This document shows positions 753-10,909 of a stretch of 64,000 nt of DNA, one piece after another. Location of the stretch: positions 1 through 64,000 of the forward strand of contig JACPPI010000012.1 in the NCBI GenBank assembly GCA_016190985.1, in the 5' to 3' direction. The DNA comes from Opitutia bacterium (lineage in GTDB: Bacteria; Verrucomicrobiota; Verrucomicrobiia; Opitutales; Opitutaceae). The notes under the pieces were generated by a model that was not told the origin of the DNA, made no database searches, and saw only the letters and a program-made list of their open reading frames with translations. Both the position numbers and the translations under genes were made by a program. How positions within the stretch are numbered: position 1 is the stretch's first letter; each line of letters opens with the position of its first letter.

Positions 753-1082
753 ATGACCACGCGACAAAACCTCCTCCTTATCACCCTCACAGGCGCGGCC
801 CTCACGGGCTTCGCCGCCGACGCGGCCACCAACTGGACGGAATCCTGCGCCAAATGCCACGGCGCGACCGGCAAAGGCGACACCAAGATGGGCAAGAAGC
901 TGGGCATCGCCGACCTCACGGACGCGAAGGTCCAGGCCAAATTCACCGACGAGCAAGCCGGCAAGGCGATCAAGGAAGGGCTCAAGGACGAGAGCGGCAA
1001 AACCACCATGAAGGCGGTCGAGGGCCTGAGCGACGAGGACGTCAAGGCGCTCGTCGCCCACGTGCGAACACTGAAGAAATAA
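753..1082 (+). CDS. Periplasmic monoheme cytochrome c, class I
   Basis: This is a 109-residue small electron carrier with an N-terminal signal peptide (about residues 1-25). One heme site, CAKCH, sits near residue 32, followed by lysine-rich repeats and a C-terminal helix ending VAHVRTLKK. The ATG at 753 places the signal peptide correctly; longer readings are poor. It leads an operon with a tetraheme cytochrome, an Fe-S protein and NrfD, so it probably exchanges electrons with that complex. Two close paralogues in the window (4716-5057 and 22848-23195) share the pattern CHG-x5-G-x-TK-x-GKK and also lead operons. The axial methionine is probably one of the two near the C-terminal third. Confidence 0.88.
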   Translation: MTTRQNLLLITLTGAALTGFAADAATNWTESCAKCHGATGKGDTKMGKKLGIADLTDAKVQAKFTDEQAGKAIKEGLKDESGKTTMKAVEGLSDEDVKALVAHVRTLKK

Positions 1083-1104: not shown

Positions 1105-1767
1105 ATGGATCCACGCCCCACGCGACCCGGGAACAGCAAAAGCAGCCGCACCAATCTTTGGCTGGGCGGGCTGACCGTCGGGTTTCTCGGCCTGGCCGGG
1201 CTTTTCCTGGCCGGCACGCGCAGTCCGCGGCCGGCGCGGGCGGACATCCCGCCCGTCGACAAAAAATTCCTCGAGACCACGCCCTGGCGCCAGACCTACG
1301 CCGATCTGGTGAAGGCCAAGGAGGATCTCTCCGATTACGATTGCTACGGCTGCCACGAGAAAAACAAACCGCCGCCGATCCGCTTCGACGACAAGGGCAA
1401 GATCATCATCCCGAAGGAGCATGCGAACATCGTGATGGGCCACGGCTCGCACGACCGGAACGACCTCTGCTACAACTGCCACAATGAGCAGAATCTGGAG
1501 ACGCTCCAGGTGCGCGACGGACGGCAGGTGAAATTCGACAACATCCCGCTGCTGTGCGGCAGCTGCCACGGCCCGACCCTGCGCGACTGGGATGCCGGCG
1601 CCCACGGCCGCACCAGCGGTTTCTGGGACCGGAAGCTGGGAGAGGCGCAGCGGCTCAGCTGCGCCAACTGCCACAATCCGCACTCCCCCCGCATTCCCCC
1701 CCGGGAACCCGCCCCGGGGCCGCACACGCTGCACGAGACCACCCCGCCGGCCCAACCCGGCCACTGA
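1105..1767 (+). CDS. Membrane-anchored tetraheme cytochrome c
   Basis: This 220-residue protein has an N-terminal hydrophobic segment (about residues 20-38, WLGGLTVGFLGLAGLFLAG) serving as anchor or signal. Four heme c motifs follow: CYGCH, CYNCH, CGSCH and CANCH. The tail is proline-rich. It begins 22 bases after the monoheme cytochrome and ends one base before the Fe-S protein ATG. With the ferredoxin-like and NrfD subunits downstream it forms a quinol:cytochrome c type module related to NrfBCD or Qrc-like complexes. No molybdopterin catalytic subunit is encoded nearby, so electrons probably pass between quinone and periplasmic cytochromes. The exact partner is not shown by the sequence. 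Confidence 0.85.
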   Translation: MDPRPTRPGNSKSSRTNLWLGGLTVGFLGLAGLFLAGTRSPRPARADIPPVDKKFLETTPWRQTYADLVKAKEDLSDYDCYGCHEKNKPPPIRFDDKGKIIIPKEHANIVMGHGSHDRNDLCYNCHNEQNLETLQVRDGRQVKFDNIPLLCGSCHGPTLRDWDAGAHGRTSGFWDRKLGEAQRLSCANCHNPHSPRIPPREPAPGPHTLHETTPPAQPGH

Positions 1768-1768
1768 C

Positions 1769-2713
1769 ATGTCCGCCCCGCCCACCCCGCCCGACCCCAC
1801 CTCCGACGCCGCGATGACGCGCCGCAGTTTTCTTCGCGGCACGGCGGCCTTCGGCGGCCTCACTGCGCTGGCGGCGAGCCTGGCGCCGTTGCGCGAACTC
1901 AGCGACTTCAGCTCCACCGAGCAGTTTCTCCAGAAATATTACAAGGAGATGACCCCCTCGGACATGGCCAAGGTGATCGCCCGCATCGAGCGCGAGGTGC
2001 AGCACCAATACGGGGTGCGCCCGCATGTGCGCGACCTGAAGCCGATGGACGGCGTCGAGTTTGTCTACTGCCTCAACCTGACCCGCTGCATCGGCTGCCG
2101 CAAATGCGTCCACGCCTGCGTCGCCGAGAACAACCAGTCGCGCAATCCCGAGATCCAATACATCCGCGTCCTCAAGATGCCGCACGGCTCGATGGACGTG
2201 GAGAAGGGCGACCACAACTACAAGGACGCGCAGGTGCCCGACAAGGGGTTTTTCTACATGCCGGTGCAGTGCCAGCAGTGCAAAAATCCGCCGTGCGTGA
2301 AGGTCTGCCCCGTCAACGCCACCTGGCAGGAGAAGGACGGCATCACGGTCATCGACTACGACTGGTGCATCGGCTGCCGCTACTGCGAGGCGGCGTGCCC
2401 GTATTTCGCCCGGCGGTTCAACTTCACCAAGCCCGAGATCCCGAAGGACCGGCTCAACCCCGAGATGGCCTACCTCGGCAACCGGCCGCGCAAGATGGGC
2501 GTGATGGAGAAGTGCCACTTCTGCATCCAGCGCACCCGCGCGGGCAAATACCCGGCCTGCCTCGAGGTCTGCCCGGTCGGCGCGCGCAAGTTCGGCAACA
2601 TCCTGGACCCCGAGAGCGAGGTTTCGCACATCCTGCGCGAGAAACGGGTGTTCATCCAGCTGAAGGAGGAAATGGGCACCTCGCCGCGGTTCTACTACTA
2701 CTTCGACAAATGA
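1769..2713 (+). CDS. Four-cluster 4Fe-4S ferredoxin-type subunit (NrfC/HybA-like)
   Basis: This 314-residue subunit carries a twin-arginine signal, TRRSFLRG, at about residues 17-24, so it is folded before export to the periplasmic face. Four cysteine clusters are visible: CIGCRKCVHAC, CQQCKNPPCVKVCP, CIGCRYCEAACP and CHFCIQRTRAGKYPACLEVC. This is the pattern of NrfC/PsrB/HybA proteins. The ATG at 1769 almost touches the preceding stop (1765-1767), indicating translational coupling, and gives the complete Tat signal. It should wire the NrfD quinol site to the tetraheme cytochrome. The family is certain; the physiological direction of electron flow is not. Confidence 0.9.
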   Translation: MSAPPTPPDPTSDAAMTRRSFLRGTAAFGGLTALAASLAPLRELSDFSSTEQFLQKYYKEMTPSDMAKVIARIEREVQHQYGVRPHVRDLKPMDGVEFVYCLNLTRCIGCRKCVHACVAENNQSRNPEIQYIRVLKMPHGSMDVEKGDHNYKDAQVPDKGFFYMPVQCQQCKNPPCVKVCPVNATWQEKDGITVIDYDWCIGCRYCEAACPYFARRFNFTKPEIPKDRLNPEMAYLGNRPRKMGVMEKCHFCIQRTRAGKYPACLEVCPVGARKFGNILDPESEVSHILREKRVFIQLKEEMGTSPRFYYYFDK

Positions 2714-2780: not shown

Positions 2781-4478
2781 ATGATCACCGCGACCCGCAA
2801 CTACCTGGTCTTCCTCCGGCGCTGCGCGCGGATCGCGTTCACCGGCGACTGGCGCTACTACCTGTGGATGGCCGTGCTGACGGTCATCGCGCTCGTCGGC
2901 CTCAACGCCTACGCCAAGCAGCTGGTCCACGGCCTCGTCGTCACCGGCATGAGCGACGAGGTGTCGTGGGGCGTCTACATCGCCAACTTCACCTTCCTCG
3001 TCGGCGTGGCGGCGGCAGCGGTGATGATGGTCATCCCCGTCTACATCTACGGCAACGAGGACCTGCACGATCTCGTCATTTTCGGCGAGCTGCTGGCGGT
3101 CGCCGCCATCATCATGTGCCTGGCGTTCGTGACGGTTGACCTCGGCCGGCCCGACCGGTTCTGGCACCTCATCCCCGGCATCGGCCAGATGAACTTTCCC
3201 GCCTCGATGCTCAGCTGGGACGTGATCGTGCTCAACGGCTACCTGCTGCTCAACGTGTGGATCTGCGGCTACCTGCTCTATTGCCGCTATCAGAAGAAAA
3301 AGGCGTCGAAGTGGTTCTATATTCCGTTTGTTTTCCTCGCCATCGTCTGGGCGATCTCCATCCACACGGTCACCGCCTTCCTCTACGTCGGGCTGGGCGG
3401 GCGGCCGTTCTGGAATTCCGCGATCGTGGGCCCGCGGTTTCTCGCCTCGGCCTTCACCGCCGGCCCCGCGCTTATCATCCTCGCCCTGCAGGTGGTCCGC
3501 CGGGTCACCGCCTCCGTGCCCACCGGCGAGACCGCGTGGCCGTGGCCGGGTGCGGCCGCGCCGGAGCCGGTGACGGGCCGGGCGGCCACCCTTGAGGATC
3601 TGGACCTGCTGGCCCGGCACCTGCCTGAACTGGCCTTCGTGCCGGCGGCGGATCGCCGGAGCTGCCTGGCCGGCGCGACGGTCCTGGAAGTGGCGGCGCG
3701 CACCATCTTGTTGCACCAGGGAGGGACGGACACCGACGCCTTCTTCATCCTGAAAGGCCGGGTGGTGGTCAAGCGGGAGGAAGGCGGACGCTCCCGGATC
3801 ACCCGCAGCGTCGGTCCGGGCGAACAGTTCGGCGAGGTCTCGTCCCTCACCGGAACCGCGCGCGTGGCCACCGCCATCACCGAGGAGCCCTCCCGGGTTT
3901 TGCGCCTGCCGGCGGAGTCCCTGCGCCGGCTCATGCGCACTCCCCAGATGAACGAGATTGTCCGCTCCCGGATGACCGAGCGGCTCATGATCACGGATCG
4001 GGGGCTGCTCATGCTCCGCAGCATCGTGCAGGTGTCGATGATCATCAATGTCTTCCTGCTCGCCTGCGAGGTGTTCAAGGAATTCTACTCCGGCACGACG
4101 CACGGGGCTTCGGCGAAATATCTTTTCTTCGGCCTGCACGGGCACAACGCGCTCGTGCCCTGGATCTGGACCGCCATCGGCTTCAACCTCATCGCCATGG
4201 TGCTGCTGGTGCTGCCCCTCAGCCGCGGCCTGAAGTATCTCAACATCGCCTGTGTGCTCAGCATCATCGGCATCTGGATCGAGAAGGGCATGGGCCTCGT
4301 CATCCCCGGCTTCATTCCCACGCCGCTCGGGGCGATCGTGGACTACCTGCCGACGCTCAACGAGACCCTGGTGTGCCTCGGCATCTGGGCGTTCGGCCTG
4401 CTCTGCTACACCATCTTCCTCCGCATGGCGGTGCCGATCCTGCAGGGCCGGCTGACCAAGGCCAACGAAATCCGGTAG
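2781..4478 (+). CDS. NrfD/PsrC-type quinol subunit with inserted cyclic nucleotide-binding domain
   Basis: This 565-residue polytopic protein resembles NrfD/PsrC over residues 1-245 and about 405-565, with roughly eight or nine membrane helices. NrfD proteins usually run near 300-420 residues. The excess is a soluble stretch at about residues 265-402 (bases 3573-3986) that reads as a cNMP-binding beta-roll. It contains FFILKGRVVV and a phosphate-binding-cassette-like GEQFGEVSSLTGTARVATA, keeping the Glu and Arg of the canonical cassette but lacking its Pro. The insertion lies between two helices and the frame is uninterrupted. With the Fe-S and tetraheme subunits it should oxidise or reduce menaquinol. 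The insert suggests direct allosteric control of quinol turnover, which is inference. Confidence 0.88.
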   Translation: MITATRNYLVFLRRCARIAFTGDWRYYLWMAVLTVIALVGLNAYAKQLVHGLVVTGMSDEVSWGVYIANFTFLVGVAAAAVMMVIPVYIYGNEDLHDLVIFGELLAVAAIIMCLAFVTVDLGRPDRFWHLIPGIGQMNFPASMLSWDVIVLNGYLLLNVWICGYLLYCRYQKKKASKWFYIPFVFLAIVWAISIHTVTAFLYVGLGGRPFWNSAIVGPRFLASAFTAGPALIILALQVVRRVTASVPTGETAWPWPGAAAPEPVTGRAATLEDLDLLARHLPELAFVPAADRRSCLAGATVLEVAARTILLHQGGTDTDAFFILKGRVVVKREEGGRSRITRSVGPGEQFGEVSSLTGTARVATAITEEPSRVLRLPAESLRRLMRTPQMNEIVRSRMTERLMITDRGLLMLRSIVQVSMIINVFLLACEVFKEFYSGTTHGASAKYLFFGLHGHNALVPWIWTAIGFNLIAMVLLVLPLSRGLKYLNIACVLSIIGIWIEKGMGLVIPGFIPTPLGAIVDYLPTLNETLVCLGIWAFGLLCYTIFLRMAVPILQGRLTKANEIR

Positions 4479-4582: not shown

Positions 4583-4644
4583 GCAATATATGCGCAGCTT
4601 CCGCCAAAATCGGGGCAGCCAACGCCCCGCGGTTCGCCGACAAT
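4583..4644 (+). promoter_or_regulatory. Two-box promoter of the cytochrome bc-type operon
   Basis: GCAATATATGCGCAG (4583-4597) and CCAAAATCGGGGCAG (4604-4618) start 21 bp apart. After 20 bases the -10 candidate is GACAAT (4639-4644). The first gene starts at 4716. Confidence 0.65.
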
Positions 4645-4715
4645 CCGGCCGATGGTGGCGTGCTGGATGCGCCGCCTGCCGGCCATACCCCTCCAGTATC
4701 CGACCCCGCGCTATC

Positions 4716-5057
4716 ATGAAAAAATCATCCCTGTTCGCCGCAGCTTGTGCATTGACCGTAACCGCCACACTCGCCGCCGGCGACGCGCCAGCCGGAACCC
4801 GGCAATATTGGGAAGAGCATTGCGCCAGTTGTCACGGGGTGGACGGCAAAGCCGACACCAAGGCGGGGAAAAAGATTGGCGCGATCAACTTCACCGACCC
4901 CCAGAGTCAGGCCAGGTTTACCGACGAGCAAATGTTCACGGCGATCAAGGAGGGCGTCAAAAACAAGAGCGGGAAATACACGATGAAGCCCGCCGAAAAC
5001 GCATCCGATGAACTGATCAAATCCCTGGTCACCCATGTCCGGTCCTTCAAAAAGTAG
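4716..5057 (+). CDS. Periplasmic monoheme cytochrome c, paralogue 2
   Basis: A 113-residue cytochrome with a signal peptide (residues 1-21, ending LAAG), one heme motif CASCH near residue 36 and the same lysine-rich layout as the cytochromes at 753 and 22848. The ATG at 4716 was chosen because it gives a standard signal sequence; the upstream reading is arginine-rich and lacks one. It opens the operon encoding the GltD-like enzyme, Rieske protein, cytochrome b and hexaheme cytochrome, and is therefore the likely soluble partner of that complex. Two possible axial methionines (MFT and TMK) are present. Confidence 0.87.
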   Translation: MKKSSLFAAACALTVTATLAAGDAPAGTRQYWEEHCASCHGVDGKADTKAGKKIGAINFTDPQSQARFTDEQMFTAIKEGVKNKSGKYTMKPAENASDELIKSLVTHVRSFKK

Positions 5058-5128: not shown

Positions 5129-7042
5129 TTGAACTACTCCATCACGATCCCGGACGTGGCGTATTTCGAGGGCCAGGTGCTCTGCCGCACCGGCTGCCCG
5201 GTGCACACCGACGCCGGCGGCTATGTCCAGGCGATCACCGAGGGGCGCTACGAAGACGCCTACATCATTGCGCGCCGGCCGAATCCCTTCGCTTCCATCT
5301 GCGGGCGGGTATGCGCCGCGCCCTGCGAGGCGAAGTGCCGGCGGAAAGACATCGACGCCGCCGTCGCGATCCGGGCGCTGAAACGATTCGTGTGCGAGCA
5401 GTGCGGGGTGGAGTCGGGGAACTTTGACCTCAGCCGGGTTTATCCCGCCGCGCAACGAGCCGGGCAGGCGAAACCGGGTCACGGAAGAAAAGTCGCCGTC
5501 GTCGGGGCCGGGCCGGCGGGCATGGCTTGCGCCCATGATCTCGCCTTGCTGGGTTTCAAGGTCACCGTCTTTGAAGCGCAGAGCATGCCGGGCGGGATGC
5601 TGACCCTGGGCATCCCGCAATACCGGCTGCCGCGCGAGATCATCCACGCCGAGATTCAGGCGATCCTCAACCTGGGCGTGGAAATCAGGCTGAACCGCCG
5701 GTTGGGTCGCGATTTTTCCCTGGCCAGCCTCACGCAGGATGGATTCGAGGCGGTCTTCCTGGCCATCGGCGCGCACAAGAGCCGCGAGCTGAACATCGAA
5801 GGGGTGGAGCTGGACGGGACCTTCCGCGCGATCGATTACCTGCTCAACATCAATCTCGGCTACAAGATCGATCTCCACGGCAAAGTGGTCGTGATTGGCG
5901 GCGGCAATGTGGCCTTTGACGTCGCGCGCTCGGTCGTGCGGCAGGCGGGGCAGATTGACGACATGAGCCCGGAAGCGATGCGCAAGATCTTGCGCGAGGC
6001 CACGACCACCCTGGATCAGCTCACCCGGGGAGAAAAAGAAGGGCCGGAGGACTTGAAAGTGGCCCTCGACGTGGCCCGGCAGGCGCTGCGCGCCGGGGTG
6101 CGCGAAGTCCACATGTATTGCCTCGAGAGCATGGAGGAGATGCCCGCGACGAAGGCCGAGATCGAGGAAGCGGTGGAGGAGGGCGTGAAACTGCACACGC
6201 GCTGGGGGCCGAAACGCATTCTGGGGAAAGACGGCCGCGTCACGGGCATCGAGCTGATCAAGGTTGGCTCCGTGTTCGACCAAAACCGGCGTTTCAACCC
6301 CACCTTCCTGGAAGGCACGGAGGAAACGGTCGCCGCCGACGGGGTCGTTCTCGCCATCGGCCAGGCGGCGGACCTCTCGTGGGTGCGCCCGGAGGACAAT
6401 CTCAAGATCACTCCGCGGGGCAGCATCGAAGCGGATCCCGAAACGCTGGCGACGTCGCGCCCCGACGTGTTCGCCGGCGGCGACGTCGCGTTCGGGCCGC
6501 GCATCATCATCACCGCGGTGGCGGAAGGCCGCCGGGCGGCGCTTTCCATCGCCAAGTTCCTGACCGGCCAAAAGCCCGCGGACGCCGTCACGATCCGCAC
6601 CACGGTCTACAACGCCCACCGGATGTTCCCCGGCTACGAAAAACTTCCGCGGAGGGAGCCGCCCGCGATCGCCACCGATCGGCGGGTCGGAATCGCCGAG
6701 GTCGAGAGCGCTTACGCGGCGGCCGACGCGCGGCGGCAAGCGGCCCGCTGCCTGAAATGCCACCTCAGCCCGGTATTTGACGGCGACCTCTGCGTGCTGT
6801 GCGGCGGCTGTGTGGATGTCTGCCCCGAATCCTGCCTGCGCATGGTGGACGTGGCCGACATCAATGGCAGCGAAACGCTCGCCGCGCTCTACCGCGCGCG
6901 CTACGGCGCGCCGCCGGCCCGCGGGGAAGCCGCCGCGATCATCAAGGACGAAACCGCCTGCATCCGCTGCGGACTCTGCGCCGCGCGCTGTCCCACGCAC
7001 GCGATCACCATGGAACGCATCGAACGACTGCAACCCGCCTGA
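5129..7042 (+). CDS. GltD-like FAD/Fe-S NAD(P)H oxidoreductase with C-terminal ferredoxin domain
   Basis: This 637-residue enzyme has an N-terminal Fe-S domain (CRTGCPVHTDAGGY, then CGRVCAAPCEAKC) as in glutamate synthase small subunit and DPYD. A FAD motif follows at about residue 126 (VAVVGAGPAGMACAHDLALL), with a second nucleotide site VVVIGGGNVAFDVARS near residue 254. The C-terminus has two 4Fe-4S motifs (CVLCGGCVDVCPESC, CIRCGLCAARCP). The start is the TTG at 5129, since no suitable ATG lies upstream of the first cysteine motif. No glutamate synthase large subunit is nearby. The Rieske gene begins three bases after its stop, so it is probably a NAD(P)-reactive arm of the Rieske/cytochrome b complex, comparable to anammox Rieske/b gene clusters that include NAD(P) oxidoreductases. 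Confidence 0.85.
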   Translation: MNYSITIPDVAYFEGQVLCRTGCPVHTDAGGYVQAITEGRYEDAYIIARRPNPFASICGRVCAAPCEAKCRRKDIDAAVAIRALKRFVCEQCGVESGNFDLSRVYPAAQRAGQAKPGHGRKVAVVGAGPAGMACAHDLALLGFKVTVFEAQSMPGGMLTLGIPQYRLPREIIHAEIQAILNLGVEIRLNRRLGRDFSLASLTQDGFEAVFLAIGAHKSRELNIEGVELDGTFRAIDYLLNINLGYKIDLHGKVVVIGGGNVAFDVARSVVRQAGQIDDMSPEAMRKILREATTTLDQLTRGEKEGPEDLKVALDVARQALRAGVREVHMYCLESMEEMPATKAEIEEAVEEGVKLHTRWGPKRILGKDGRVTGIELIKVGSVFDQNRRFNPTFLEGTEETVAADGVVLAIGQAADLSWVRPEDNLKITPRGSIEADPETLATSRPDVFAGGDVAFGPRIIITAVAEGRRAALSIAKFLTGQKPADAVTIRTTVYNAHRMFPGYEKLPRREPPAIATDRRVGIAEVESAYAAADARRQAARCLKCHLSPVFDGDLCVLCGGCVDVCPESCLRMVDVADINGSETLAALYRARYGAPPARGEAAAIIKDETACIRCGLCAARCPTHAITMERIERLQPA

Positions 7043-7045
7043 CCC

Positions 7046-7558
7046 ATGAACCAAGGCCATTCCTCACCCTCCGCGCCCCGGGCGCCGCAGCCGGGCAAAG
7101 GCGACAGCCGGCGCGATTTCATCTGGCTGACCCTCGGCTGGCTGGCTTCGCTGTTTGCGCTCGGCGCGAGCGGATTCGCCACGCTGCGCTCGCTGGTGCC
7201 GAATGTCCTGTATGAGCCGAGCCGCCGGTTCAAGGCCGGCCGGCCGGGGGACTATCCGGATGACACCGCGACCTTCATCGAAGAGGTGCGCCTGTTTATC
7301 GTGCGCAAAGGGAGCACCTATCGCGCCATGAGCGCCATCTGTCCCCACCTCGGCTGCACGGTGAACGCCACCGTCGGCAAGCATCCCTTTCTCTGCCCCT
7401 GTCACGGCAGTCATTTTTCCCCCGACGGCGCCGTGATGAGCGGCCCCTCGCCGCGCGGGCTGACCTGGCATGCGCTGAGCCTGAGCAAGGACGGACGCCT
7501 GGTCGTCGACCTGGACCGGGCCGTGACGCACGACAAAACCCTCGTCATCCAAGCATGA
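7046..7558 (+). CDS. Rieske [2Fe-2S] protein of a cytochrome bc-type complex
   Basis: A 170-residue protein with a Tat-like N-terminus ([11 protein letters not shown]), one membrane helix (about residues 28-48) and the two Rieske loops CPHLGCTV and CPCHGSHF, supplying the Cys-His ligands and the disulfide cysteines. It receives one electron from quinol at the Qo site. It starts three bases after the oxidoreductase stop and overlaps cytochrome b by four bases (ATGA), so the subunits are co-translated. Length and order (Rieske, cytochrome b, multiheme c) match the alternative bc complexes of several menaquinone-using phyla. Confidence 0.92.
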
Positions 7559-8829
7559 AATCACCCAAGCAGGTCTGGCTGTGGTTTGCCGGGACGCGCG
7601 TCGGCCGATCCATCTTCCGCGTCGGTCTGCCGGAGAGCAACCTGGGCCGGATGCAGGCGATGGTTTCGAGTTTCCTGCTCCATCTCCACCCGGCCAAGGT
7701 GCACCGGCATTCGCTCCAATTCTCCTCCACCCTGGGGCTGGGCCTGATTTCGCTCTACCTCTTTTTGCTCCTGTGCATCACCGGCGTGGCGCTGATGTTC
7801 TTCTACGTTCCCAGTCCCGAGCATGCCTATGACAACATGAAGGACCTGGAGTTTGTGGTGTCGGCCGGAATGATCGCGCGCAACATGCACCGGTGGTCCG
7901 CGCACCTCATGGTGCTCTGCGTGTTCCTGCACATGTGCCGCGTGTTTTACACCGGAGGCTACAAGCCCCCGCGCGAATTCAACTGGGTCGTCGGGGTCGG
8001 GCTCTTTGTCATGACGCTCGTGCTGTCCTTCACCGGTTATCTGCTGCCGTGGGACCAGCTGGCCTTCTGGGCGATCACGGTCGGCACCAACATCGCCGGC
8101 TACGCCCCGGTCATCGGGAAGAAAATCCAGTTCCTCCTGCTGGGCGGCAACATCGTCGGCGAGTCGGCGCTGCTCCGCTTTTACGTGCTGCACGTCGTCG
8201 TGCTGCCGGCCGCCGTGGTGTTCATGGTCGCCCTCCACCTCTGGCGCGTGCGCAAGGACGGCGGACTTTCGCGGCCCGGCGAACCCGATGTGCTCGTGCC
8301 ACAGTCGGAAACCGGCCGGCTTTCCACCAACAAGACCTACGGGCTGATGGAACTGGCGCGGGGCACGTCGCCCGCCGTGGGGCTTGACCCCGCGGATGAA
8401 TTGCCGGCCTGGCCGCACCTGGTGTTTCGCGAGGTTCTCCTGTTCCTGGCCACGATGGCCGTGGTCATGTTCCTGAGCGTGTTTTGGAACGCGCCGCTCG
8501 AGGAGTTCGCCAATCCGGCGCATCCGCCGAACCCGGCCAAGGCGCCCTGGTATTTTCTGGGCCTGCAGGAGCTGGTGGCCTACTCGGCGTTCTGGGGCGG
8601 GGTGGTCGTGCCGGCGCTGCTGCTCGTGGCGCTCGTCGCCTTGCCCTACCTCGACCGCGAACGGGCGGGTGTCGGAGTCTGGTTCGCGCGCGAACGCCGG
8701 GTGGCGGTCACGCTCTTCACCCTCTGCGTCGTGGCCGCCGTGATTCTCACCGTCATCGGCACCTATTTCCGCGGGCCCAACTGGGGCTGGGTTTGGCCGT
8801 GGGCGGCGTCGGTTGTTGTCCCGCACTGA
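7555..8829 (+). CDS. Cytochrome b (b6 plus subunit IV fused) of a bc-type complex
   Basis: This 424-residue membrane protein combines the four-helix heme b domain and the subunit IV domain. Heme b histidines appear in [19 protein letters not shown] and in [20 protein letters not shown], and the Qo loop is represented by [12 protein letters not shown] in place of the PEWY motif of classic bc1. The spacing between the two histidines of the third helix is not resolved here. The N-terminus has a cytosolic lead of about 55 residues. It accepts electrons from menaquinol and works with the Rieske protein and the hexaheme cytochrome encoded four bases downstream. The Pro-Trp-Tyr variant is common in non-proteobacterial complexes. 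Confidence 0.9.
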
Positions 8830-8832
8830 ACC

Positions 8833-10215
8833 ATGGACGCTTTGAAAAGATTCTATCCGTGGTTTGCGCTGCTCGGGCTCGCCGTCGGGGGACTGGTGCT
8901 GGCGGGCTATTACAAGGACGAATTCCGGGAATGGAAACGCTGGCAGCGGGACTACAACGCCCAGGAACTCAGCCGCGCCGCCACGCCGGAGCAGAAAGAG
9001 CAGGCCCGCGCCCTGCCGGTTGAGATCAGGCAGATCGTGCTGCCGGGCCTGCAACGGGTGGACCGCTGCACGACGTGCCACCTCGCCGTCGAGGATCCGG
9101 GTTATGCCGGCTACAGGCAGCCGCTCGCCTACCACCCGAGTCACGCGCAGCACCCGTTCGACAAATTCGGCTGCACGATCTGCCACCAGGGCCAGGGGCG
9201 CGCCACCGAACGCGAGGCGGCGCACGGGCGGGTCGCGCACTGGGAGCATCCGATGCTGGCGATGAAATACATCGAGGCCTCGTGCGCGAAGTGCCACGCC
9301 GCCACCGATCTGCCCCGCTCCCCGCTGCTGGCGCGCGGGCGCGCCTTGTTCGACGAGCAGGGCTGCATCGGCTGCCACAAACTCGGCGGCTTCGGGGGCA
9401 ACCTTGGCCCGGAATTGGACAGGGTCGGCGCGAAACGGAGCCCGGAATGGCTCGCGAAACACTTCAAGTCACCCGCGGAACTCGTGACCGGTTCAAGCAT
9501 GCCGCCCGTGAAACGAAGCGACGCCGACGTGACGGCACTTACCCTGTTCATGTTGGGGCAGACCGGCGAGCGGCTGACGGAATATTATGTTTCGATGAAA
9601 ACCATCCCCGGACCGGAACTGGGGCAGAGGTTGTTCAGCCAGAAAGGCTGCATCGGCTGCCATACGGTCGGCGGCAAAGGCGGCAAGGTCGGCCCGCCGC
9701 TCGATGATGTCACCAAACGGCGGGCCCCCGACTGGATTGTGAAGCATTTTCGCGATCCGGCGTCGGTCTCCCCTGAAACGGTGATGCCAAAATACAATTT
9801 CACGGAGCCCGAGATCCGGGCGCTGGCTGCCTTCCTCGGCTCGCTGACCGGAGCCGACATCTCCGCGTTCATGAAAATCCCGTCGCAGGCGTCGCCGATC
9901 GAGCGCGGCCGGGCGGTCTACCTGAAATTCGGGTGCGGCGGATGCCACGGCGCGAACGGGGAAGGCGGCGTGCCGAATCGCAATGCCAGGGCCAATCAGC
10001 AGATTCCGGCTCTGACGGCGGCCAATGATGTCGCCGATGTCTTCCTCGAATCGTTCGTCACCGAGGGCATCCCGGACCCGGCGAAACTGGACCCAAACGG
10101 CCCCAAGCCGCCCATCTACATGCCGGCTTTTGGCGACAAGATTTCCGAAGGCGAACTGGCCGATCTCATCAGCTACCTGCGCAGCCTGCAGCCCGCTCCG
10201 AACGAAAAGCCGTAG
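8833..10215 (+). CDS. Membrane-anchored hexaheme cytochrome c of the bc-type complex
   Basis: A 460-residue protein with an N-terminal helix (about residues 9-26) followed by a short coiled stretch and six heme c motifs: CTTCH, CTICH, CAKCH, CIGCH, CIGCH and CGGCH. The last three lie in tandem class I cytochrome domains with MPPVK, MPKYN and MPAFG methionine segments; the first three form a multiheme domain. It closes the operon and replaces cytochrome c1, taking electrons from Rieske and passing them to periplasmic carriers such as the cytochrome at 4716. No obvious terminator follows before the next promoter at 10293. Confidence 0.9.
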   Translation: MDALKRFYPWFALLGLAVGGLVLAGYYKDEFREWKRWQRDYNAQELSRAATPEQKEQARALPVEIRQIVLPGLQRVDRCTTCHLAVEDPGYAGYRQPLAYHPSHAQHPFDKFGCTICHQGQGRATEREAAHGRVAHWEHPMLAMKYIEASCAKCHAATDLPRSPLLARGRALFDEQGCIGCHKLGGFGGNLGPELDRVGAKRSPEWLAKHFKSPAELVTGSSMPPVKRSDADVTALTLFMLGQTGERLTEYYVSMKTIPGPELGQRLFSQKGCIGCHTVGGKGGKVGPPLDDVTKRRAPDWIVKHFRDPASVSPETVMPKYNFTEPEIRALAAFLGSLTGADISAFMKIPSQASPIERGRAVYLKFGCGGCHGANGEGGVPNRNARANQQIPALTAANDVADVFLESFVTEGIPDPAKLDPNGPKPPIYMPAFGDKISEGELADLISYLRSLQPAPNEKP

Positions 10216-10396: not shown

Positions 10397-10909
10397 ATGG
10401 CCCAGCAGCTCACCGCGGATGATGCCCGCCAGTCCCTCGCCGCCCACGTCGAGGCAAAGGGCGTGGAGATATTTTATAAATACGGCCCGGTGATCGGCTG
10501 GACCGGGCTGCAGCAGTTGCTGGCCGACCGGGTCTACGTGCGCTATCCCTGCGAGGTGGTGTTTGACGCCGGCCCGCTGGAGCCCGGCGAGTTTGCCGTG
10601 CCCGTGCAGAAGGGCGGGCGGCCGGAGGAGGGGTTCACGATGTTTGTGCACCCGATCTTCATGCCCCAGCTCGACCTCGTGCCGGCGTTGGTGCTCTACC
10701 AGCTGGTGGCGCTGAACTACGGCGTCTTCGCCTCGGCGCACGACGCCGAGACCTTTGGTGCCGCCGCCCTCGGGCTCACGCGCGACGAATATTACGACCA
10801 ACTGTGCGAGGTCTCGGACCAGCTCGGCGGCGCCGGCCCGACGGACATCCTGGGCCGGCCGCTGGAAGCAGCGCCGGCCGGTGGCGGCTGTGGCGGCGGT
10901 TGCCATTGA
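10397..10909 (+). CDS. Uncharacterised 170-residue protein with glycine/cysteine tail
   Basis: The protein has no signal peptide or membrane helix. It shows a mixed alpha/beta composition and a tail GGGCGGGCH that could bind metal or be disordered. Other cysteines are PCEVV and QLCEVS. It has its own two-box promoter of the respiratory regulon and stands alone between the bc operon and a convergent DUF2339 gene. I do not recognise the family. Co-regulation suggests a role in low-oxygen or respiratory physiology, but no function can be assigned. Confidence 0.7.
   Translation: MAQQLTADDARQSLAAHVEAKGVEIFYKYGPVIGWTGLQQLLADRVYVRYPCEVVFDAGPLEPGEFAVPVQKGGRPEEGFTMFVHPIFMPQLDLVPALVLYQLVALNYGVFASAHDAETFGAAALGLTRDEYYDQLCEVSDQLGGAGPTDILGRPLEAAPAGGGCGGGCH

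Follow-up and report, generated by a model that had tools for sequence, protein, structure and literature searches.

Second messengers control respiration through transcription, and they also act on channels, exchangers and kinases. In the MloK1, SthK and HCN/CNG channels and in the SLC9C1 exchanger, the cyclic nucleotide-binding domain (CNBD) follows the membrane domain on its C-terminal side. In the NrfD family of membrane subunits, the first bundle holds the quinone site, beside the FeS subunit and on the P side, and two half-channels with a gate have been proposed, with the gate residue and the P-side half-channel both assigned to the second bundle (PMC8076601). Coupled function of QrcD requires residues for quinone binding and proton transfer, including those of a cytoplasmic proton path (PMC13059093). 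Both modules are already known, as are CNBDs on transporters and channels; what is new is their combination in one NrfD-CNBD protein, of which we found no published example. Our search of the open-access literature, which did not cover subscription literature or domain-architecture databases, returned no description of such a fusion, and the one paper that mentioned both NrfD and CNBD proteins treated the two kinds separately.

The stretch of DNA analysed here (the window) comprises 64,000 nucleotides of an Opitutia bacterium whose genome is a 34-contig draft; all features given window coordinates below are on the + strand. Positions 2781-4478 form a single uninterrupted ORF (ATG at 2781, stop codon at 4476-4478) encoding 565 amino acids. 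The protein matches both Pfam NrfD (PF03916; residues 54-243, E 6.6e-36, 125 bits against a gathering threshold of 25.8) and Pfam cNMP_binding (PF00027; residues 303-386, E 8.6e-18, 64.5 bits against 27.5). It also met the equivalog test for DsrP (NCBIfam NF045798; 412.8 bits, curated cutoff 350), with an alignment in two stretches that indicates a DsrP interrupted by an insert. Judged by these profiles, the subunit falls within the NrfD family in the DsrP branch. Relatives occur with the insert (fused) or without it (short), and a non-redundant set contained 54 fused proteins, all with the insertion at the identical site, and 35 short ones. The first NrfD/DsrP part (residues 1-243, 2781..3509; Pfam NrfD 9.5e-37 for this half alone) comprises helices TM1-TM6 of the AlphaFold2 model and holds the family's quinone-site bundle. 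The second part (residues 404-565, 3990..4475), identified from short relatives and modelled helices, comprises TM7-TM10 and includes a conserved WIEKGMG helix; residues 403-563 are 86-89% identical to short relatives of the genus.

Upstream of this gene lie a monoheme c-type cytochrome (753..1082; CAKCH motif), whose homologue precedes the multiheme cytochrome gene in most fused and short relatives, a tetraheme periplasmic cytochrome c in the 'J' position (1105..1767; Pfam Paired_CXXCH/Cytochrome c3, four CXXCH motifs), and an exported DsrO/NrfC-like 4Fe-4S subunit (1769..2713; Pfam Fer4_11, 3.4e-17) with a Tat-type signal, TRRSFLRG, read in the translation. A DsrO-like gene is 5' of NrfD in 43/45 fused and 30/31 short loci, which meets the test for an exported 4Fe-4S partner. 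Most relatives of either form share the order cytochrome c, multiheme cytochrome c, DsrO-like FeS protein, NrfD and a 170-aa protein of unknown family, the last normally being the next gene after NrfD, at about +1.7 kb in 42 of 45 fused loci and +1.3 kb in 28 of 31 short loci. In the window, the 170-aa protein gene (10397..10909) is separated from NrfD by a second monoheme c-type cytochrome with an uncertain start codon (4632..5057; Pfam Cytochrom_C 1.6e-6) and by window-specific genes assigned by Pfam to a GltD-like FAD/4Fe-4S oxidoreductase, a Rieske protein, a cytochrome b and a multi-domain cytochrome c (5129..10215). Nearly all relatives lack the 5129-10215 set in the immediate vicinity; L095 is the only one with a nearby cytochrome b/c of this kind. 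The 170-aa protein ends in CGGGCH and had no Pfam or NCBIfam match. At one fused locus (L063, 2489-4687) it is apparently in frame with the NrfD C-terminus in a 733-aa ORF, a hint of physical interaction between the two proteins.

The window protein resembles DsrP of DsrMKJOP in its ten TM helices and in its neighbours, a DsrO-like Tat-exported FeS protein and a multiheme cytochrome c, but differs by a 159-residue cytoplasmic insert with a CNBD. The cluster also departs from DsrMKJOP. Its 4Fe-4S subunit scored 165.8 bits against NCBIfam DsrO, below the cutoff of 200, and did not meet the DsrO equivalog test. The tetraheme cytochrome, with its four CXXCH motifs, had no NCBIfam DsrJ match and did not meet the DsrJ triheme test. 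Neither DsrM nor DsrK was found among the annotated neighbouring genes, to which this comparison was confined, and no DsrA match was found in the window's genome, so that the DsrAB test for DsrMKJOP was not met. Given the subthreshold DsrO, the lack of a DsrJ match and the absence of DsrA, this is not the DsrMKJOP of sulfate reduction, and we refer to it as DsrJOP-like. As in QrcABCD (QrcD) and alternative complex III (ActC), a quinone/proton subunit of the NrfD type faces a cytochrome c and an FeS protein in the periplasm, but the locus has no Mo-protein-like subunit, a single NrfD and the CNBD insert. With one NrfD gene in the cluster, the test for alternative complex III (two NrfD subunits plus ActB) was not met. 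Elsewhere in the same genome (C32:48945-49946), an ActC-like NrfD without the insert directly follows an ActB-like FeS ORF, and this locus is probably an alternative complex III lacking the insert.

Alignment to short relatives defined the inserted block as residues 244-402 (159 residues), which replace a two-residue loop. The block consists of a variable linker of about 22 aa followed by a CNBD of about 135 aa, and residues 265-402, which the first-pass annotation had read as a cNMP-binding beta-roll of some 138 residues with a recognisable phosphate cassette, are therefore almost exactly the domain. Both parts of that reading held. The isolated segment (3573-3986, 138 aa) matched Pfam cNMP_binding at 6.1e-19, and phmmer against solved structures returned EPAC2 (7.9e-13), PKA regulatory subunits, PKG and CRP-type proteins. 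The CNBD proper spans residues 267-401 (3579..3983; Pfam cNMP_binding; phmmer EPAC2/PKA-R/PKG; VIA Z 15-16 to the Rv0998 and MloK1 CNBDs). Its phosphate-binding cassette, QFGEVSSLTGTARVATAI (residues 349-366, 3825..3878), retains the canonical Gly-Glu...Arg-x-Ala-Thr pattern of cAMP-type sites, and phmmer aligned the window sequence FGEVSSLTGTARVAT with FGELALIYGTPRAAT of PKA RI-alpha. G351, E352 and R361, which in CNBDs that bind cAMP are the cassette positions in contact with ribose and phosphate, were kept in 54/54 inserts.

AlphaFold2 run on the family alignment (mean pLDDT 77, pTM 0.78) gave both folds in one model of 2781-4478, an ActC-like part and a CNBD. The best structural match of the whole model, at Z 28-29.5, was ActC of alternative complex III. 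The insert, with its beta-roll strands and flanking helices, matched the solved CNBDs of Rv0998, MloK1, SthK, PKA and PKG at Z 14-16. Confidence was mostly 84-92 pLDDT in the CNBD blocks and very low in the linker (residues 244-266, 3510..3578; pLDDT <50 at 248-259). The NrfD-type protein has ten TM helices in this model, with the insert in the TM6-TM7 loop, and a helix at 388-399 is followed directly by the TM7 helix at 406-436. Profile searches, insert-less relatives and the model agree with the earlier proposal that the domain is embedded between two membrane helices and that NrfD resumes after it. By positive-inside loop charges, the modelled topology and the Tat signal on the FeS partner, the CNBD loop is cytoplasmic, which puts the insert on the face opposite the quinone site. 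Our own mapping of the ten helices assigns it to the second bundle, in the N-side loop that joins core helices 5 and 6. The placement of the CNBD relative to the membrane part rests on the pTM of 0.78 without a PAE map.

MloK1, SthK, the HCN/CNG channels and SLC9C1 likewise have a CNBD at the cytoplasmic face of a membrane transport protein, and the MloK1 and SthK domains match that of the window at Z ~15. Unlike theirs, the window CNBD is inside the membrane domain of a redox subunit and exits straight into a TM helix. The PKA regulatory subunit, EPAC2 and the mycobacterial acetyltransferase Pat (Rv0998, Z 16) share its fold and cassette, but these are soluble proteins without a quinone or membrane part.

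Across the 54 inserts, mean divergence was 43%, and L277, L311, Q313, G314, G326, V330, R339, R342, G347, F350, G351, E352, S354, R361, A365, M398, R401 and L402 were invariant. The cassette, which contains six of these positions (F350, G351, E352, S354, R361 and A365), was the most constrained stretch of the CNBD (entropy 0.69 vs 1.2-1.6 elsewhere; Mann-Whitney p 0.001). Divergence at the three codon positions was 0.32/0.24/0.54 for the insert, indicating purifying selection, and 0.57/0.59/0.67 for the N-terminal linker, which by this measure and by its entropy of 2.91 bits/site (246-266) appears nearly unconstrained. At the other end, the exit junction RMTERLMITD (3969..3998), through which the C-terminal helix of the CNBD continues into TM7, is near-invariant (0.50 bits/site at 397-406; M398, R401 and L402 in 54/54). 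A variable linker and a fixed exit junction point to a transmission path on the TM7 side. The invariant R339 and R342 (3795-3797 and 3804-3806) are unexplained by the canonical phosphate cassette, and contact with the membrane part or with the ligand is possible.

We consider the CNBD to be a cyclic-nucleotide sensor that regulates the complex, with a probability of roughly 0.6; nucleotide binding, an effect on activity and the direction of that effect are all inferred, as there are no binding or activity data. The first-pass annotation had also proposed a second-messenger sensor, and this is well supported, in that the ligand-contact Glu and Arg are conserved and the genome encodes class III cyclases, but binding of a nucleotide has not been demonstrated. 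Seven class III cyclase domains were found in the window's genome, and at least one class III cyclase was present in each of 30 genomes tested. As these included both fused and short kinds, cyclase presence was ruled out as a discriminator between them, and ligand supply does not explain which species own the insert.

The domain could instead be a true sensor of something other than cAMP or cGMP, such as c-di-GMP, another small effector or a redox or gas cofactor, acting by the same mechanical route. Non-cNMP sensors with the CNBD fold, such as FNR and DNR, do exist and turn up in the fold searches, and the invariance of R339, R342 and S354 goes beyond what the canonical cassette alone accounts for. 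The cassette itself nevertheless has the canonical pattern and aligns with that of PKA RI-alpha, and the inserts share no Cys/His cluster of the kind expected where a metal or heme is bound. We regard a different ligand as improbable, while keeping it ahead of the remaining alternatives.

Somewhat more doubtful is a CNBD that serves assembly, stability, localisation or oligomerisation on the cytoplasmic face without controlling turnover, whether or not nucleotide is bound. Relatives manage without the domain, its presence is interleaved among lineages, and it has diverged at about 2.5 times the rate of the flanks (0.43 vs 0.17), all of which would suit a structural role. The invariant ligand-contact residues and a junction conserved on one side only fit signal transmission better than a tethered scaffold. 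The idea that the insert arose from misassembly or misannotation, or is merely a degenerate passenger, can be practically dismissed: nothing was found to support it beyond the draft state of the genome, and 54 non-redundant related loci from independent assemblies have the same insert, site and open frame, with purifying selection and the cassette residues in 54/54, which excludes the assembly error that would have refuted the original observation and likewise rules out a chimera.

The fused form was present in 33 of 83 matching genomes of the window's family (counted from our tabulated matches) and in four further families, giving at least five families of one Verrucomicrobiota class; named records belong to Opitutaceae, Limisphaerales and other Verrucomicrobiota. 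Outside the class, only short forms were found in a phylum sample of 388 genomes. For two fused genes (L088, L089) the record titles name Klebsiella pneumoniae and Proteobacteria, but in the tree both sit with a Verrucomicrobia record (L090), and the two records are probably mislabelled MAG bins. Both forms occur within the window's genus, with fused relatives at 80 and 95% identity and short ones at about 86-89% over the flanks. Where fused proteins have 152-163 residues, short ones have two (xY) in a loop of pattern VT-x-Y-x-I-x-D. At the place judged by eye to correspond, the sequence is ITQYHIDC in the ActC-like paralogue encoded by the window's genome, and the short loop is therefore probably ancestral.

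A maximum likelihood tree of fused and short proteins, built from the flanks alone, required at least 10 changes between the two states, 6 of them forced by strongly supported branches. A single insertion inherited by one fused clade was ruled out (10 changes, p-AU 1.6e-7). Insert distances tracked flank distances with r 0.53, close to the r 0.59 between the two halves of the flanks, suggesting, not conclusively, that the insert mostly travels with its gene. In close fused/short pairs, identity was only mildly lower beside the insert; this and the distance correlations speak against the insert alone having recently recombined into short alleles, without settling the matter. Our preferred reading, an inference, is one origin followed by gene exchange and replacement, with the path of transfer, recombination or loss unresolved. 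On sequence comparison, the fusion is not a one-off and appears to be an old, recurrently exchanged variant in Verrucomicrobiota.

No partner gene specific to the fused form was strictly tied to it in the neighbourhoods. The only strongly enriched ORF in fused loci (38 vs 1) lies on the opposite strand at the insert's own position, and the upstream cytochrome c was mildly enriched (42/45 vs 21/31, p 0.005). The lack of a strictly tied gene and the faster evolution of the CNBD count against regulation of the complex. Regulation would also be dispensable for basic activity, since close species function with only two residues in this loop.

If the CNBD is nonetheless a cyclic-nucleotide sensor, the following mechanism may be envisaged. 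The subunit would be the membrane quinone/proton part of a DsrJOP-like periplasmic-cytochrome:quinone complex, in which the quinone site, the exported 4Fe-4S subunit and the tetraheme cytochrome c would exchange electrons on the outer face. On the inner face, cAMP (or cGMP) made by class III cyclases would bind the phosphate cassette. The C-terminal (lid) helix of the CNBD would then move and pull or rotate TM7 via the RMTERLMITD junction. A shift of TM7 could alter the second four-helix bundle, the proposed site of the P-side proton half-channel and gate residue, and so raise or lower electron/proton throughput of the complex. The fusion, its position, the conserved ligand-contact residues, the conserved exit junction and the cyclases were observed, and both folds were predicted. 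Whether a cyclic nucleotide exerts direct allosteric control over a respiratory quinone/proton-coupling subunit, with a TM-wired CNBD gating electron/proton flow, we judge to be an even bet.

Were it true, signalling would reach the proton-motive force directly, through a nucleotide sensor built into a redox complex at its membrane subunit, and a second messenger would set respiratory flux post-translationally, inside the electron-transport chain itself. Close species with and without the insert, at exactly the same site and with flanks about 89% identical, constitute a natural experiment, in which the two-residue loop is a defined point for removing or adding a CNBD. This offers a handle on a question that concerns the NrfD family as a whole, namely whether movements of the second bundle control proton transfer. 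Predicted as it is from sequence and structure, the intact-looking CNBD in the middle of this subunit suggests direct tuning of respiration by cAMP or a similar second messenger in Opitutaceae and related Verrucomicrobiota.
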